A stretch of DNA of 41,283 nucleotides from contig JAAPAA010000285.1 in the NCBI GenBank assembly GCA_012274165.1, positions 1 through 41,283 on the forward strand, in the 5' to 3' direction. Below the pieces are notes generated by a model that was given only the letters and a program-made list of their open reading frames with translations, was not told the DNA's origin and searched no databases. The position numbers and the translations under genes were made by a program. This document shows positions 19,021-31,887 of the stretch, piece after piece. Within the stretch, counting starts at the first letter, position 1, and every line of letters starts with the position of its first letter. The stretch comes from Thiobacillaceae bacterium (GTDB taxonomy: Bacteria; Pseudomonadota; Gammaproteobacteria; Burkholderiales; Thiobacillaceae).

Positions 19021-19293
19021 ATGTCCACCCGATTGTTCCGCCACCCAGACGGCACCCAGCCCGCGGCCAACGCCCGCGGCGGCGTGCTGATGACCTGGCT
19101 TACCGGCAGCTGCTATGCGAACTTGCGGCGCAAGCACATGCGCCACCACATCGACCGCGCCGACGTCATCAGTCTGGATACCAAGGCGCTACTGCTGAAA
19201 CTGTTGGCGCGACAGGAACACGCCGAGCTGTGGCCCAACCACGACATGGCTTTCTGGAAAACCCTGCGGCGCTTCCCCGAATGCCATGAATAG
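19021..19293 (+). pseudogene. Shrunken fatty-acid-desaturase gene relic
   Basis: This 90-codon open frame has the ends and one internal block of a membrane fatty-acid desaturase. The start LFRHPDGTQPA and the block GVLMTWLTGSCYANLRRKHMRHHIDRADVISLD look like the desaturase family, including the second histidine box HxxHH (HMRHH). The first box (HECAH type), the membrane helices and the third box are all missing, and an intact enzyme would be over 300 aa. The last 30 residues ([18 protein letters not shown]) are not recognised. It overlaps the start of the GGDEF-EAL gene by 8 nt, so it may still serve as a translated leader. A functional small protein cannot be excluded. Confidence 0.55.
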
Positions 19294-21451
19294 GCTCTCA
19301 AACGCGCAGCTTGCCGAACTGGCCGGGGCGGAATCCGACGCCCCGCTCGACGTCACGCGCCTGCTCACCACCATCACCGACAACCTGGTCGGCATGATCT
19401 ACCGCTGCCGGGTAGACGCGATCTGGAGCATGGAGTTTGTCAGCGACGGCTGCCACAAGCTCACCGGATACCGGCCCGACGAACTGGTGTTCAACACCCG
19501 GGTCTCCTACGACCAGATCACGCTGCAGGAAGACCGCGCGCACGTCAGCCGCACCATTCACCGCGCACTGGAAAAAAACGAATCCTTCGACATCGAGTAC
19601 CGCATCGAGCGCGCCGACGGCCGGGTATGCTGGGTGCTTGAACGCGGCGTCGGGATACGCGACGCAAGCGGCCGGCTGGCCTGGATCGAGGGATACATCC
19701 AGGACATCTCCGAACGCGTGGCGGCCAACGCCATGCTGCGCGAGACGGTGCGCCGCTACAGCAGCATTTTCGAGCACGCCACCGAAGGCATTTTCCAGAC
19801 CACGCCTGAAGGCCGTTATCTTGACGCCAATCCGGCGCTGGCGCGCATTTACGGCCACGCTTCGCCGGATGCGCTGATCGATCACCTGCACGACATCTCG
19901 CGCCAGCTGTATGTGCAGCCGGAGCGGCGCGCGGCCTTCGTGCGCCTGATGCAGGAACAGGGTGCGGTGCGCAATTTCGAGTCGCAGGTCTACCACCACG
20001 ACGGCCACATCATCTGGATTTCCGAGAACGCGCGCGCCGTCAAAAACGCGGATGGCAGCGTGCAGTTTTTCGAAGGCACCGTGGTTGACATCTCCGAGCG
20101 CCGCCAGCACGAAGCCGAGCTCGAATACCAGGCCAGCCACGACAGCCTGACCGGCCTGCCCAACCGTTCGCTGCTGCGCGACCGCATCGAACAGGCCATC
20201 GCCAAGGCGCGACGCGATGGCAACCGGGTGGGAGTGGTGTTTGTCGACCTTGACCACTTCAAGCTGATCAACGACAGCCTCGGCCACCACGTTGGCGATC
20301 GCCTTCTGCTGGAGGTTGCCGGCCGTCTCAGTTCCTGCATCCGTAGCCACGACAGCGTGGCGCGTCAGGGTGGCGACGAGTTCGTGCTGGTACTCACCGA
20401 GCAGCATGGCGAGGATGACACCCTCGCCATCATCACCCGACTGCTGGAGGTCATCTCCCAGCCATGGGTAGACGATGGCCGGGAATATGGGCTCAGTTGC
20501 AGCGTCGGCATCAGCTGTTATCCGAAGGACGGCGACGACCCCGACGCGCTGCTGCGCTGCGCCGACGCCGCCATGTACCAGGCCAAGGCGTCCGGCCGCA
20601 GCACCTACCATGTCTACACGCCCGAACTGAACCAGGCGATCAGCGCACGCCTTGAACTGGAAAACAGCCTGCGCCATGCGCTTGAACGCGCCGAATTCCG
20701 CGTCTATTACCAGCCGCGCATCGACGTTGCCAGCGGCCGCATCGTCGGCGCCGAAGCGCTGATCCGCTGGGAGTGTCCCGGCAAGGGCCTGATCCCGCCC
20801 GACCATTTCATTTCGATCGCCGAGGAAACCGGACTGATCATCCCCATCGGGCAATGGATCCTGCAGGAAGCCTGCCGCCAGAACCGCGCTTGGCAGCGCG
20901 CCGGGCTGCCACCCATCAGCGTCTCGGTGAATCTGTCGCCGATCCAGTTCCGCCATGCCGGGCTGGTGCAGTCGGTGGCCGCTGCGCTGCAGCAGGCGGA
21001 GCTGGACCCGGCCTGCCTGGAACTGGAACTGACCGAGTCCTTCGTCATGCACGACGCCGAACGCATCAACGTCGCCATGCAATCGCTGAAGGCGCTCGGC
21101 GTCGACATCGCGGTGGACGACTTCGGCACCGGCTATTCGAGCCTGAGCTATCTCAAGCGTTTCCCGGTCGATCGCCTCAAGGTGGACAAGAGCTTCGTGC
21201 GCGACATCGACAGCGACCCCGACGACGCCGCCATCGTGCGCGCCATCATTACCCTCGGCCACGCGCTGGGACTCAAGGTGGTAGCCGAAGGGGTGGAAAC
21301 CATGGCGCATCTGGAATTCCTGCAGCAGCATGGGTGCGACGAACTGCAGGGCTACTACTTCAGCCGTCCGGTTCCCGCTGCGGAAATGGAAGCCTTGCTA
21401 CGCGGCACGGCGGCGAGCGCGAGCTGGTGCGCATCGCAGCGTAGCGCATGA
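19286..21451 (+). CDS. PAS-PAS-GGDEF-EAL cyclic-di-GMP turnover protein
   Basis: A 721-aa soluble protein that probably makes and/or degrades c-di-GMP in response to a signal sensed by its PAS domains. Order: PAS (about residues 25-145, ending in a PAC segment YIQDISERV), PAS (150-275), GGDEF (280-445; intact GGDEF at 362-366 with an upstream RSHD inhibitory site), EAL (460-705; EAL at 490-492, [14 protein letters not shown] and AEGVET intact). Both enzymatic halves look competent. No membrane segment is evident. Its stop overlaps the next gene as ATGA. It starts inside the end of the desaturase relic, so it may be read from the sigma-54/riboswitch leader. Confidence 0.93.
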
Positions 21452-22429: not shown

Positions 22430-25000
22430 TTATGCTGCCGCCTGCATCACGGTTTCCGGCATGCACGGCATTTCACCGGCTTCCAGTGCACGATAGATGT
22501 AATCGATATCGAGCACCTGTATCAGCAGCCCATCCTGATTGCCCTTAATGAGCAGCGGCACCAGCGTTTCTCCGGCCTCCAGGGCGAATGGGCTAGGACT
22601 AATCTGCTCGTCGCGGAATTCCGGGACACCATGTAGTTCATCGACCAGCAAACCGATGCTTTGCTGCCCGTTCCAGACCACCACGACCTGACTGCTGTGG
22701 GTGATTTCAGACAGGCTTCCCCGCACCATGTAGCCCAGGTCAAATACCCAGATGAATTTTTTCTCCTCATCTTCGCGTTCGAGCGCAAGCATGCCGATTC
22801 GGCCGGTGAAACCACCCATCGAAACCGGCAGCAAACCCGAGCCTGGCAGGGCTTCCAGCACCTGCTCTGCAGGCATGGCATATAAATCGCCGTCAATGAA
22901 GCATGTTGCGAATTGCCTGCCACCGCTTTCCAGTAAATTGTGATCGATAACGGTGGAGACCCGATTGCCCGATGCGCGACGTTCGCGCACCTCGCCAAAG
23001 GATTCGAACACCACGGCAATGACATCCTCCTGGTAGTCGTCGCTGACCTTGAACTCGCGATAGCCGTTCGAGACGGTGCAGCCCATGCTTGCATAGCGAC
23101 CGTCATGGATCGTGATAATCGAGGTGCTGCAGCCATTTTTCTGCCGCAGGATTGCCGGATCGATATCGAGTTGGCTGCCCACCGGGCGAGCCGGATCGGT
23201 GCTGGCAATGATGAGGCCGCGGCGGTCGATGAAAAATGCCGTGGTGCCGGCCTTGCCATTCAGGCCGCCGTGCAGCATGGCGGAAAACTCCGGCGCGGCG
23301 TCGAACACGATGCCGATCCCGCCGACGACCATTTTTGGCTTGTCCGGATGGCGAATCGCGGCGTGGTAGACATAAGTTGGCAATCCGTCGTACAGCGGTG
23401 TCGCTGCAAATGGACTGACGTGGTAATCCTGCTCGGTCGCCAGCGATAACACCGATGCAAGCGTGTCATGCTCGACCGTGGTGCCGACAATATGCCGGTC
23501 TTCACCCTTCTGCGCCAGACAGGTGCTGGCGATGATCCGCCCACTTTTGTCATACACAAAAATCCGGGTGTAAACGGTATACAGACTGTTGATGTAGGCC
23601 AGGATGCCGGTGATGTTCTTGAGCATGGCCTCGGTCCGCGAAGGAGCAGCCAGCGCAGTGCGCAATGCTGGCGTCAACGCCCACCAGCGGCAATCATTGG
23701 CGCGCTCGTACAAATTGCGGTCGTGCAGGTCGACCAGTAAGTGCGTCATGAATTCCGCCCCGCGCAAACTGGAGCTCAGCACCGTTTCGTACAGGTTGCT
23801 GATGGATCGCGCAAACAGTTCGTTGCTGTGGTTGCCGGTTTCACTGATCTGCTCCAGCACCGATTTAAGCTGAACCTGATTATCGATGTTGCCGGCGGTC
23901 ATGACCTGTCCGTTCCACACGACGCGCTGTATGGTTTCGGCCGCCTTCATGATCTTGTAGAGCGGCGGCGAAAAGGTCTGCGCATGCGACAGCAGGCCGT
24001 CGACGATCGCGGGATCGAGCGATGACAGAGAGCGGTCGCCGTTTTCCAGGAATGCAACCTCGACCGGAACCATGACCTGCCCCTGCCAACCCGGAGGCCC
24101 CATGTAACCCTGATAGCCGTCCGCGCCAAAGGTCTGCACCAGATATTTGCGGCCACCGAACATCATCAGGCGGGCGCTGCCGCTCCGGTTCACCGGAACG
24201 ACCGAACCAACGGGCACCCACAGCGCATCTGCACTGGCAATGACGCGGTTTTCGCTGTCGAGCAACAGCATGTTCGAGCGCTCGTCCGGATCGCGATGCG
24301 ATTTGAAGATGCCCTGCATTTCCTGCTCGAAATCGAAGCAGAGACAGAGGATGCCGACCACCTTGCCGGTTTGCGGATGCAGCATCCGCTGCGAATAAAT
24401 CAGCGCTTTATCCTTGCCCGGGCGAAGGTCAGTCGCGCGGAAACTTTCGACATAGCTGCCTGAAGCCAGCGTTTGTCCGATCAGCGGGTCGATGCTGCCC
24501 TCAACTTCGGAATGCTCGTCGATCTGTACCAATATGTTTCCGTCCCGGTCCAGCAGCATGATTTCGTCGTAAACGGTGTACTTGCTGCGATAGGCCAGCA
24601 GGCGTGCATGAATGGCGTCCGCATTGTTCTGCTCGCCGGCAACGAATTCACAGAGATCGCGGTCAGTGGCGAGAAAGCCGACATCGGCAGTTCGCTCATA
24701 CAGATTGCGCACCACGATATCGATCACGTAGTGCGCCTTGGTGCCGATTTCCATCAGTACGTTCGCACACTTTTCGTGCACCAGGCTCGAAACCAGTTCG
24801 TGTTCCAACTGATCGAATCCGGCCCGCGTTGCCGCCATGGTTTGCAGAATCGATTGGGTCTCGGCCAAATAATTCATCTTGGCCGAGGACTCGATCATGC
24901 GCCACATCATGCTCAGTTCACGCAGGGATTGCTCGCTGCGGACAACGTCGCGCATGTAAGGCAAGAATATGTCGTTCTTCTGGTTGGAGGCATTGCTCAT
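22430..25000 (-). CDS. Soluble double-Cache-like protein with C-terminal CheW domain
   Basis: The 856-aa protein combines sensing-type and chemotaxis-coupling parts. Two similar halves each start with an NLYER motif (NLYERTADVGFLATD and NLYERANDCRWWAL) followed by a Cache-like segment (YTVYDEIMLLDRDGNILVQID; YTVYTRIFVYDKSGRIIAST), then DRRGLIIASTDPARPVG. The last 140 or so residues are CheW-like (CFIDGDLYAMPAEQVLEAL, WNGQQSIGLLVDELHGV). I see no membrane helix, HAMP or methyl-accepting signalling domain, so it is not a chemoreceptor in the usual sense. It may bring a cytoplasmic signal to CheA. The ATG at 25000 is preferred to the ORF-track start 31 codons upstream. Confidence 0.8.
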   Translation of the reverse strand: MSNASNQKNDIFLPYMRDVVRSEQSLRELSMMWRMIESSAKMNYLAETQSILQTMAATRAGFDQLEHELVSSLVHEKCANVLMEIGTKAHYVIDIVVRNLYERTADVGFLATDRDLCEFVAGEQNNADAIHARLLAYRSKYTVYDEIMLLDRDGNILVQIDEHSEVEGSIDPLIGQTLASGSYVESFRATDLRPGKDKALIYSQRMLHPQTGKVVGILCLCFDFEQEMQGIFKSHRDPDERSNMLLLDSENRVIASADALWVPVGSVVPVNRSGSARLMMFGGRKYLVQTFGADGYQGYMGPPGWQGQVMVPVEVAFLENGDRSLSSLDPAIVDGLLSHAQTFSPPLYKIMKAAETIQRVVWNGQVMTAGNIDNQVQLKSVLEQISETGNHSNELFARSISNLYETVLSSSLRGAEFMTHLLVDLHDRNLYERANDCRWWALTPALRTALAAPSRTEAMLKNITGILAYINSLYTVYTRIFVYDKSGRIIASTCLAQKGEDRHIVGTTVEHDTLASVLSLATEQDYHVSPFAATPLYDGLPTYVYHAAIRHPDKPKMVVGGIGIVFDAAPEFSAMLHGGLNGKAGTTAFFIDRRGLIIASTDPARPVGSQLDIDPAILRQKNGCSTSIITIHDGRYASMGCTVSNGYREFKVSDDYQEDVIAVVFESFGEVRERRASGNRVSTVIDHNLLESGGRQFATCFIDGDLYAMPAEQVLEALPGSGLLPVSMGGFTGRIGMLALEREDEEKKFIWVFDLGYMVRGSLSEITHSSQVVVVWNGQQSIGLLVDELHGVPEFRDEQISPSPFALEAGETLVPLLIKGNQDGLLIQVLDIDYIYRALEAGEMPCMPETVMQAAA

Positions 25001-25114
25001 CGGATCGGTTTTGGCATCAAGTTGAAATGCCTGAAAACTAGCAAGTAGCAGACCAGGCCTGCACTTGTGAAACCTCAGAGCGCCTTTATCCACGGTGCAT
25101 CAAGCGGAATCTGA

Positions 25115-25276: not shown

Positions 25277-27487
25277 TCAGCCGCGTGTCTGCCGGCCGGC
25301 GGAAACGAATGCGGCGAAATCCGCTGCCGGTAACGCCTGCGAATGCAGGAAGCCCTGCACCTTGTCGCAGCCGATCCGCGCCAGGTAGTCCTGCTGCTCG
25401 CAGGTTTCGATGCCTTCGGCGATGGCGTCCAGTCCCAGCGTTTTGGCCAGGCCGATGATGGCCGCCGCAATGGCGCAGTCGTTGGCGTCGCCCGGGATGT
25501 CCAGCACAAACGAGCGGTCGATCTTGAGGTTGTCGATCGGCAGCTGCTTCAGATAGGACAGCGAGGAATAACCGGTGCCGAAATCGTCGATGGCGACGCG
25601 GATGCCGTACTCGCGCAACTGCGTGAGCACCCGCGAACACAGTTCGATGTCGCGCATCAGCATGTTCTCGGTCAACTCGATCTGCAGTTGCCGGCCGGGC
25701 ACGCCGCTTTCATGCAACAGATCGATGATGCGGTCGGTGAAATCCGGCTGCGCCAGTTGCACGGCCGAGATATTGACCGAGATGTAGTCGAGCTCAAGTC
25801 CGTCTGCCAGCCATTCATGCATGCGCGTCAGCGCCTCGCGCAGGATCCATTCGCCGAGCGGCACGATCAGGCGCGTTTCCTCGGCAACCGGGATGAAGCT
25901 GCCTGGCGTGCGTGCGTCGGCCGGTCCGTTTGGCCAGCGGATCAGCGCCTCGCAGGCGACGACCTTGCCGCGGGTGATATCCACAATGGGCTGATAGTGC
26001 AGCTCGAAGCCGCCGTCCCGCACTGCGGTGCGCAACGCATGGTCGAGCTCGATTTTGCTGCGCATCACCTCGGACAGTTCCACGCTGTAGCGCACATGGC
26101 CGTCGCGTCCGGCATCCTTGGCGCGGTACATCGCCGTATCAGCGTTCTTCAGCAGGGTGACGGCATCGATGCCGTCTTCAGGATAAAGCGTGACGCCGAT
26201 GCTGCAGCCCACATACAGATCGAGTCCATTGACCACGAACGGCTGCTTGAAAGCCGCCACCACCTTGTCGGCCAGGCTGGTCGCGGCGGCGGGCGAGGTA
26301 TTGCCTTCCATCAACACCACGAACTCGTCACCGCCGAGGCGGGCGACGGTATCGACCTGACGGACCAGGCTCTTGAGCCGGCGCGCAGCTTCAATCAGCA
26401 GCAGGTCGCCGATCTGGTGACCCAGACTGTCATTGATGTTCTTGAAATGGTCGAGGTCGATGAAGAGCAGGGCAACGGTCTGGTCATCGCGCTTGGCGCG
26501 TTCGATGTCATGGTGCAGCCGGTCGCTCAGCAACAGCCGGTTGGGTAGCTCGGTCAGCACATCGTGATGCGCCAGGAAATTGAGCCGGGTCTGGGTTTCC
26601 TTGATCGACGAGATGTCGGTCATGACCGAGATGTAGTGCGTCAGCACGCCCTGAGCATCACGCACTTCGCTGATGGTTTGCAGCAGGGGCAGGATGCGGC
26701 CGTCGCGCGACCGGTCGAGGATCTCGCCATGCCAGTGCCCGGTTGCGCGCAGCGTGTCCCACAACGCTTCATAGAAAGCCGGTTCATGCAGGTCCGACTT
26801 GAGGATGCTCGGCGTCGAGCCGATCAGTTCATCGCGGCCGTAACCCGTGATGCGCGTCACGGCCGCGTTGACTTCGATCACGCGGTTGTCGGTATCGGTA
26901 ATCAGGATGCCTTCGCCGACATGGCTGAAGACCTGGGCATACAGCTGCAGATGGCGCTCGACTTCCATCTGCTGGGTGATGTCGGCAAACAGCATGACCG
27001 TCTTGGCATGCCGGCCGGCCTCGTCGAAAATCTTCGAGGCGACCACCTGCACGTCCTGGCCGTGCAGGTTGACGACATGGCAGGTGCCATCGGCGACCTC
27101 GCGAACATGGGCCAGCGCTTCGGTACAGTCGCACACCTCGTTCGACAGACGACCGATAATCTGCGCCCGTTCGCTGCCGCCGAAAAACCAGTCGAGAGAG
27201 CGCCGGTTGCAGTCCTCGATCCGGTTGTCGTGGTCGAACACGACCACGGCGGCGCCCAGCGTATCGAAAATGGCGCGGATCTCGTCGGTGGCGAGATTGA
27301 GGCGATGGTTGGTCTCGTTGAGATGGGCGACCATCTGCGCGAACGATTCGGCGACGATGCCGATGGGATCCAGCTCGAGCAGGGTGGCGTCGTCGAGCTC
27401 CTCGGGGCGCAGCGGCAAGGTTCCCATCACCGCCAGCAGCTGGTCGAGCTTGGCGCGGATATAGCGAATGGCGTCTGTGCTTGTCAT
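25277..27487 (-). CDS. PAS-GGDEF-EAL cyclic-di-GMP turnover protein downstream of sulfur genes
   Basis: A 736-aa soluble protein. After an N-terminal region (1-65) come two PAS domains (about 68-175 and 183-298), GGDEF (305-470; GGDEF at 385-389, RQVD inhibitory site) and EAL (480-725; EAL at 513-515, [21 protein letters not shown]). All key residues of both enzymes appear present. It begins 30 nt after the tusA-like stop on the same strand, so it is probably co-transcribed with the thiosulfate transporter and TusA genes. That links c-di-GMP output to sulfur supply. The signal bound by the PAS domains cannot be read from sequence. Confidence 0.93.
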   Translation of the reverse strand: MTSTDAIRYIRAKLDQLLAVMGTLPLRPEELDDATLLELDPIGIVAESFAQMVAHLNETNHRLNLATDEIRAIFDTLGAAVVVFDHDNRIEDCNRRSLDWFFGGSERAQIIGRLSNEVCDCTEALAHVREVADGTCHVVNLHGQDVQVVASKIFDEAGRHAKTVMLFADITQQMEVERHLQLYAQVFSHVGEGILITDTDNRVIEVNAAVTRITGYGRDELIGSTPSILKSDLHEPAFYEALWDTLRATGHWHGEILDRSRDGRILPLLQTISEVRDAQGVLTHYISVMTDISSIKETQTRLNFLAHHDVLTELPNRLLLSDRLHHDIERAKRDDQTVALLFIDLDHFKNINDSLGHQIGDLLLIEAARRLKSLVRQVDTVARLGGDEFVVLMEGNTSPAAATSLADKVVAAFKQPFVVNGLDLYVGCSIGVTLYPEDGIDAVTLLKNADTAMYRAKDAGRDGHVRYSVELSEVMRSKIELDHALRTAVRDGGFELHYQPIVDITRGKVVACEALIRWPNGPADARTPGSFIPVAEETRLIVPLGEWILREALTRMHEWLADGLELDYISVNISAVQLAQPDFTDRIIDLLHESGVPGRQLQIELTENMLMRDIELCSRVLTQLREYGIRVAIDDFGTGYSSLSYLKQLPIDNLKIDRSFVLDIPGDANDCAIAAAIIGLAKTLGLDAIAEGIETCEQQDYLARIGCDKVQGFLHSQALPAADFAAFVSAGRQTRG

Positions 27488-29781: not shown

Positions 29782-31887
29782 TCAGGGCGATGCTCGAGTC
29801 GCGGCCAGCATGTATTGCTGGAATTCTTCCGCCAGCAGCGGCCTGGAGAAATAGTTGCCCTGCACTTCATCGCAATGATGCAGGCGAAGATGCTCGACCG
29901 TGTCTTGTGTTTCAATGCCTTCGGCAATGGTTCTGAGGTTGAGCGCACGCGCCATCTGGATGATGGCATGGACGATGGCGGCATCTTCGGGATTGGTGTT
30001 CATGTCCTGAACGAAGGTTTGAGCGATTTTCAGCTTGTCGATGGGGAAACGCTTGAGGTAGGCCAGGCTGGAATAGCCGGTCCCGAAATCGTCGATCGCA
30101 AAGCGGATGCCCAGGCTCCTGAGATTGAGGACGGTTTCCAGTGCGTATTCAGCTTCCACGATCAGGAGGGACTCGGTCAGCTCCAGTTCCAGCCGGGCGG
30201 GCGCAAGTCCGGAGTCGCTCAGGGCCTGCACCACGGATTGCTGCAGGTTGCCGCGACGGAATTGCATCGCCGACAGGTTCACCGCGACGGTCAGTTCGGG
30301 CAACCCGGCCTGTTGCCAGCGGACGGCCTGGCGACAGGCTTCCTGCAGCACCCATTCGCCAATCGGCACAATCAGGCCACAGTCTTCGGCGACGGAAACG
30401 AACGCCTCCGGCAGCACCAGACCGCGCTTGGGCGAGTTCCACCGCAGCAGTGCCTCGACGCCGGTGACCCGCCCGCTGGCAAGATCGATCTGGGGTTGGT
30501 AGTGCAGAACGAACTCGCCGCCAGCCAATGCCTGACGCAATTCGATGCGGATGGCATGGGACAAGGCGACAGCCGCGTTCATCTGCTCGCTGAAAAAGGT
30601 GAAATCGTTTCCGCCCGTGCCTTTGGCATGATACATGGCGGTATCGGCCCGCTGCATCAGCGTGTCCGTATCCTTGGCATCGTTGGGGTAGATCGCGATC
30701 CCGACCGAGGTAGTCACCAGCAGGGAATGGCCCTCGATCTCGCAGGGGGCTGCCAGGGCGGCGACAATCTTGGCGGCGCTACCCGTCACAGCGTCGAGAT
30801 CCTGGATGTGCGTGAGAATGATCAGAAACTCGTCGCCGCCCTGCCGGCTAACGGTGTCTGTTTCCCGCAGGCAGGCTTGCAGGCGTCGCGCAACCTCGAC
30901 CAGCAGCAGATCACCCATGTTGTGGCCGAGGGAATCGTTGATCGCCTTGAATTTGTCCAGATCCAGGAACAGCAGCGCGACGTTTTCATTTGCGCGATCG
31001 GCATAGGCCATGGCCATTTTCAGCCGTTCCGTCGCCACGAAACGGTTAGGCAGCCGGGTTAGATGATCGTGATGGGCCAGAAACTCGATCTGCGCTTCGG
31101 CCAGCTTGCGCGCGGTCGTATCGATGCAGATGCCGGTCATGCGCTGTGCGTTGCCGTCCGCATCATAAGTGGTGTCGCCGAACGCATCGATCCAGCGCAC
31201 CGCCCCGGTCGGCAAAACGATGCGGTATTCGTTGAAGAGGGGCACATGATCGCGGAGGGTTGTGTAGATCGCCTCTTCAGCCCGCTGCAGGTCATCCGGA
31301 TGCACCACGCTGCGCCAGGTATCGAACGTGGCGGCCGTGGCGGCGGGATCCAGTCCGAACAGCTGAAAGAGTTCGTCCGACCAGACAAGCGTCCCGCTGG
31401 GGACGTCCCAGTCCCACACCCCCGCCCCCGCGGTACGTTGCGCCAGCGACAGCCGCTCGTTGGCCCGCAGCAGATCCTGCTCCGCCTGCTTGCGCTCGGT
31501 GATGACGTCGAACATGGCAACGAAGTGTTCGGGTTTGGGACGGTAAACCGTAATCGAGAACCACATGCCGAGTGCGCCGACCCAGGTTTCGAACTTCTCC
31601 GCTTTGCCACCCTGGGCGACCCGGCCGAAAATATCGAACAGCAGGGGATCGGATTCACGGACACCCGGAATGACGTCGGTGATGCGCCGGCCGACTACGC
31701 CCGAGAGGCCGGTCAGCGATTCAAACGCCGGGTTGGTATAAAGACAGATGAAGTCGCAGGGCTGCCCGTCTTCGAACAGCATCTTGCAGTAGGCCATGCC
31801 ATTGAGCATGTGCTCGACGATCGTTCCCGCCTCGCCAGACAGGCGTGCCACTGCAGACGTGCTGTTTACAGAGTCCTTGGGCGGCAT
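29782..31887 (-). CDS. PAS-PAS-GGDEF-EAL cyclic-di-GMP turnover protein
   Basis: A 701-aa soluble protein. PAS (about residues 20-130), PAS of the type with a PAC tail (145-262: AGAGVWDWDVPSGTLVWSDELF), GGDEF (270-435; GGDEF at 350-354, RETD inhibitory site), EAL (445-695; EAL at 478-480, [21 protein letters not shown]). Catalytic residues look intact in both output domains. AAGGAG lies 12 nt before the chosen ATG. It follows the allophanate hydrolase gene on the same strand after about 90 nt, so read-through from the guanidine operon is possible; an own promoter in the gap is equally likely. Confidence 0.92.
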   Translation of the reverse strand: MPPKDSVNSTSAVARLSGEAGTIVEHMLNGMAYCKMLFEDGQPCDFICLYTNPAFESLTGLSGVVGRRITDVIPGVRESDPLLFDIFGRVAQGGKAEKFETWVGALGMWFSITVYRPKPEHFVAMFDVITERKQAEQDLLRANERLSLAQRTAGAGVWDWDVPSGTLVWSDELFQLFGLDPAATAATFDTWRSVVHPDDLQRAEEAIYTTLRDHVPLFNEYRIVLPTGAVRWIDAFGDTTYDADGNAQRMTGICIDTTARKLAEAQIEFLAHHDHLTRLPNRFVATERLKMAMAYADRANENVALLFLDLDKFKAINDSLGHNMGDLLLVEVARRLQACLRETDTVSRQGGDEFLIILTHIQDLDAVTGSAAKIVAALAAPCEIEGHSLLVTTSVGIAIYPNDAKDTDTLMQRADTAMYHAKGTGGNDFTFFSEQMNAAVALSHAIRIELRQALAGGEFVLHYQPQIDLASGRVTGVEALLRWNSPKRGLVLPEAFVSVAEDCGLIVPIGEWVLQEACRQAVRWQQAGLPELTVAVNLSAMQFRRGNLQQSVVQALSDSGLAPARLELELTESLLIVEAEYALETVLNLRSLGIRFAIDDFGTGYSSLAYLKRFPIDKLKIAQTFVQDMNTNPEDAAIVHAIIQMARALNLRTIAEGIETQDTVEHLRLHHCDEVQGNYFSRPLLAEEFQQYMLAATRASP

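Follow-up and report, generated by a model that had tools for sequence, protein, structure and literature searches.

A predicted soluble protein joining two dCache domains to a divergent CheW domain in Thiobacillaceae and its possible role as an in-cell chemotaxis sensor

Gene, domains and predicted fold

The window, the whole 41,283-nucleotide stretch of Thiobacillaceae DNA that we analysed, carries the gene for an 856-residue protein, P0001 (Table 1). In a scan of genome contigs, the alignments of its relatives begin at residues 1-13. Three PAS-GGDEF-EAL c-di-GMP proteins are encoded within 13 kb around the gene, at 19286-21451 (+), 25277-27487 (-) and 29782-31887 (-), and are not conserved near its relatives. 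The segment 31977-40730 (-) encodes allophanate hydrolase-like, urea carboxylase-like, DUF1989 and glutamine synthetase-like proteins, likely for urea use.

Table 1. Positions of P0001 and its features in the window
Feature	Position	Strand	Basis or remark
CDS P0001, dCache-dCache-CheW, 856 aa, predicted soluble	22430..25000	-	ATG at 25000; alternative in-frame GTG upstream at 25093
Predicted helical hairpin A (aa 17-95: helix 17-43, turn 44, helix 45-110 into Cache)	24716..24952	-	AlphaFold
dCache A (aa 72-319)	24044..24787	-	Pfam dCache_1; VIA-align Z 17.2 to 3lid_A, 235 residues, rmsd 3.4 (half folded alone)
RNLYER motif, module A (aa 98-103)	24692..24709	-	Family conservation
Predicted helical hairpin B (aa 345-425: helix 345-368, turn, helix 376-440)	23726..23968	-	AlphaFold
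dCache B (aa 404-671)	22988..23791	-	Pfam; VIA-align Z 16.4 to 3lie_B, 240 residues, rmsd 3.1
RNLYERANDCRWWA motif, module B (aa 428-441)	23678..23719	-	Nearly every position invariant in 47 sequences, including Cys437
CheW domain (aa 693-843)	22472..22924	-	Pfam; VIA-align Z 15.9 to 2ch4_W, 138 residues, rmsd 2.3; profile E = 3e-13 to 2qdl
CheW loop replacing the NLRG / Arg62 motif (aa 736-754)	22739..22795	-	Alignment

We searched P0001 against Pfam and found dCache_1 in two stretches (50.2 bits; cut-off 45) and CheW at residues 697-837 (38.8 bits; cut-off 23.5), with no match to MCPsignal (PF00015), HAMP or a receiver domain. The CheW domain is C-terminal, and the CheV arrangement of CheW followed by a receiver is not present. 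An NCBIfam scan gave nothing above cut-off. An earlier, sequence-only reading of this DNA had proposed that the protein consists of two similar halves, and this was borne out: residues ~70-326 and ~400-682 align with 24% identity (E = 3e-13), and profile-profile comparison placed their similarity far above chance (E = 1e-24 to 6e-25). Among the motifs that it took to be repeated, NLYER (residues 99-103 and 429-433) and YTVY (141-144 and 474-477) do recur, but "DRDG" belongs to the first half only and reads "DKSG" in the second.

Hydropathy revealed no clear membrane helix in P0001 or its 46 aligned relatives, the maximum Kyte-Doolittle 19-residue mean being 1.46 for P0001 and at most 2.0 across 47 relatives. 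The absence of a membrane helix and of HAMP had been correctly read from the letters, and the absence of a membrane segment suggests that P0001 is cytosolic. Extracytoplasmic placement is typical of Cache domains, though not obligatory (78%), and only Diacid_rec and YkuI_C are named as mainly intracellular families (PMC4822843); with no membrane helix by hydropathy, P0001 would depart from the placement typical of dCache.

We built an AlphaFold model of P0001 on a 47-sequence family alignment, with a pLDDT of 82.7 and a pTM of 0.74 for the full protein and a pLDDT of 87.1 for the first half alone. Searching the models against known structures with Foldseek and VIA-align recovered a dCache fold in each half (Z ~16-17) and a CheW fold at the C-terminus, and the Cache-like and CheW domains that had been proposed from the letters thus both stand. 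Each sensor region has the long N-terminal helix and two PAS-like subdomains of dCache_1 (PF02743), and the C-terminal region combines the CheW fold with a PF01584 match. A sequence search of the PDB with the NLYER-Cache profile found nothing at E 0.01. The protein had also been said to lack a methyl-accepting hairpin. As far as sequence goes this is right, but in the AlphaFold prediction two helices form a hairpin ahead of each Cache, and "WR.IESSAK" in the hairpin A region is strongly conserved.

Relatives, genomic company and duplication

The contig scan confirmed at least 561 relatives, so the architecture is no one-off. It had been described as unusual, but hundreds of loci, mostly beta-proteobacterial, conserve it, and CheW-fused sensors have been published (CheWS, CheW-CZB). 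Among the 80 relatives listed, most were beta-proteobacterial (Thiobacillus, Comamonas, Acidovorax, Duganella, Massilia, Herbaspirillum, Azospira) and a few came from MAGs labelled otherwise. Divergent members (33-41% identity) retain a CheW-like C-terminus. We considered whether CheW is lost where alignments stop near residue 727 and ruled this out: a CheW-like C-terminus was found in all six members checked, and Pfam confirmed it in both of those scanned (L181 and L184). In some Thiobacillus-group MAGs, copies of the gene (L007/L088, L008/L089) are broken by stops or frameshifts; the gene may be decaying in places, or these may be assembly errors.

P0001-type genes were found in 22 of 117 genomes of the window's own taxonomic family and in 32 of 298 Burkholderiales genomes (~11%), a sample from which the window's own genome was set aside and whose order we took from the named relatives. 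CheA was present in every one of the 32 carriers, compared with 216/298 in the background (Fisher p = 3e-5), and flagellin in 31 (p = 4e-5). Species are not independent, and the genus-level values of 0.004 for CheA and 0.016 for flagellin are therefore safer. The gene is an orphan: its neighbours vary, which rules out a conserved operon, and only 5 of 119 neighbours contained MCPsignal; this counts against the reading of P0001 as an array-docked sensor set out below. The window's genome encodes MCPs, CheW, a CheV-like protein, a CheA fragment adjoining CheW and a Pil-Chp-like cluster.

To trace the single module, we ran its profile (A2) on 299 genomes of the phylum and obtained matches in 23. 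With the CheW-type proteins set aside, almost all matches were short soluble proteins in which an MCP tip at the N-terminus precedes a single Cache; we refer to them as mini-receptors. These proteins (among them L121 2827-3867, L122 2845-3870, L123 2827-3861 and L157-L174) are 340-400 residues long, soluble, and composed of a tip hairpin and a C-terminal NLYER dCache; they carry the Cache motif RNL[YF]ER[ST][CA]DVRWWATD, score 57-65 bits to Pfam MCPsignal and, where annotated, are called only "methyl-accepting chemotaxis protein". They are located on plasmids of Burkholderia, Caballeronia and Methylobacterium and in other Pseudomonadota. They share with P0001 the Cache family (RNL[YF]ER..D), solubility and a hairpin ahead of the Cache, but have a single module, a real MCP tip and no CheW. 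The cytosolic formaldehyde-taxis MCP of Methylobacterium is MtpA (PMC10613068), and a link to it is only a lead. A cysteine is near-invariant in the mini-receptors (RNLYER[ST]CDVRWWATD); the invariant Cys437 of module B (ANDCRWWA) occupies a different site and is a possible redox or metal site.

In a tree of modules, the A modules, B modules and mini-receptors formed three clean groups (support 100/99, 100/100 and 92/74). Because the tree separates them, the duplication occurred once, before the family spread, and the fact that A and B have been kept apart since then suggests distinct jobs. One locus, L125 1462-3588 (-), encodes a 708-residue protein that has both hairpin-plus-Cache modules but lacks CheW; a histidine kinase-like gene lies convergent to it.

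The CheW domain and possible modes of action

CheW is the least conserved part of the protein, with 3 of 151 positions invariant versus 32 of 247 and 38 of 230 in the Caches. Such low conservation could mean relaxed function, and it counts against reading P0001 as an array-docked sensor. Within P0001's clade, the equivalent of Glu38 is kept in 43 of 47 members, but the NLRG motif with Arg62 occurs in none of the 47, usually with an insertion in its place; [ND][LI]RG is present in the same genome's own CheW, CheV-like and PilI-like proteins. The clade thus lacks the Glu38-Arg62 pair, which is near-absolute in class F7 only (PMC3828127). Loss of NLRG across the whole family was ruled out, as distant members vary and several retain the arginine (L092-L095, L100, L181, L184). 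In E. coli, CheW with R62A binds CheA and receptors about normally, and chemotaxis is impaired (PMC3828127).

We moderately favour the reading of P0001 as a cytosolic sensor docked into chemotaxis arrays through CheW. Modules A and B, each a diverged hairpin and dCache, would sense one or more small molecules, or a metabolic or redox state, in the cytosol, and through its CheW domain the protein would take a place in a chemosensory array, within the CheA/CheW baseplate. Movement of the modules upon ligand binding would then change CheA activity without a classical receptor. In the weakest step, P0001 would bind the array yet couple receptor and kinase only loosely, making it a ligand-controlled modulator rather than a plain CheW; this would be expected because its clade has kept the Glu38 equivalent and lost Arg62. 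The co-occurrence with CheA in 32/32 carriers and the CheW fold lend indirect support to putative docking; ligand sensing and the direction of response are likewise putative. The sister users of the NLYER Cache are MCP-tip proteins, that is, chemotaxis inputs too, which counts for the array-docked sensor.

The hairpins allow other readings. Because the nearest outside relatives of the Cache are the mini-receptors, in which a single NLYER-type Cache comes after a true MCP tip, the modelled hairpins of P0001 may be worn-down tips. That P0001 is two fused mini-receptors with their own CheW, whose worn tips still contact CheW/CheA, nevertheless seems unlikely to us. In its favour, AlphaFold places a hairpin at the equivalent position in both modules, the match continued into the tip's C-terminal arm when module B and the mini-receptors were aligned by profile, and the second hairpin of L125 matched the MCP-tip profile above all shuffles (E = 4.8e-5). 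Against this, the family's own hairpins, compared with MCP-tip profiles by hhalign (family-only and broadened), performed no better than column-shuffled controls, and their EAARAG-type tip residues are gone; we make no claim of MCP-tip homology for them, as only the second hairpin of L125 passes. A related scheme, in which the tips of two soluble mini-receptors degenerated after CheW was gained in cis and two functionally distinct dCaches read cytosolic ligands and drive CheA without a separate chemoreceptor, is possible but doubtful.

Docking could instead be into the type IV pilus (Pil-Chp) system rather than the flagellar one, as the Pil-Chp-like cluster of the genome includes a 2021-residue ORF with a CheW domain. 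One carrier, G615 (99% complete), encodes a P0001-type protein and, like G000, only a weak CheA match, in G615 of the size of pilus-type CheA; this counts for pilus docking and against the favoured reading. With flagellin in nearly all carriers, and with most of them also encoding a CheA that matches strongly and has ordinary length, we consider pilus docking quite unlikely. The CheW domain might also act as a decoy or insulator that damps signalling by competing against ordinary CheW for CheA or receptors, the Caches merely setting its folding or abundance. The loss of NLRG/Arg62 alongside a retained Glu38 equivalent, and the unimpaired affinities of R62A CheW, would suit such a role, but the arginine persists in the distant members named above and the strong conservation of the sensor part suggests real sensing, so we regard it as very improbable.

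Comparison with known sensors and CheW fusions

An array-docked P0001 is best read as a putative CheW-fused sensor of a known but little-studied kind (CheWS, CheW-CZB). Chemoreceptor inventories count MCPsignal domains, so the family falls outside them, and P0001 is probably an in-cell sensor overlooked by standard receptor searches. If docking is true, P0001 would follow CheWS as a further example of sensing via the coupling protein and not a receptor. The family would also form a sizeable predicted branch of cytosolic dCaches in a domain family that is treated as extracytoplasmic with hardly an exception, and a natural CheW without Arg62 offers a way into the role of that residue. Our search of the open-access literature, which misses most subscription journals, turned up no paper on a Cache-CheW protein; 30 undescribed CheW architectures were reported in Pfam 35, of which 12 include domains linked to the input of signals (PMC10653840), and Pfam's list may already contain dCache-CheW.

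The classical dCache sensors DctB, vpHK1S-Z8, PctA and Tlp3 share the dCache fold with the Caches of P0001 (Z ~14-17), but at 10-15% identity and as extracytoplasmic domains of membrane proteins. Other CheW fusions, including CheV and CheW-CZB, likewise join CheW to an extra signalling domain, which is a receiver in CheV and a CZB sensor in CheW-CZB, where P0001 has a pair of dCaches. CheWS of Treponema denticola, in which CheW is fused to a SAM-binding CheR-like sensor, is cytosolic and array-anchored and, according to its authors, the first characterised CheW-fused chemotaxis sensor (PMC10653840). It is the precedent for our favoured reading. P0001 has the CheW fusion and predicted solubility of this kind, with array anchoring and ligand sensing putative. 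Both are soluble, couple CheW to a small-molecule sensor (cytosolic in CheWS, putative in P0001) and have no MCP domain of their own; CheWS, however, has one CheR-like sensor C-terminal to CheW, whereas P0001 has two dCaches N-terminal to it.
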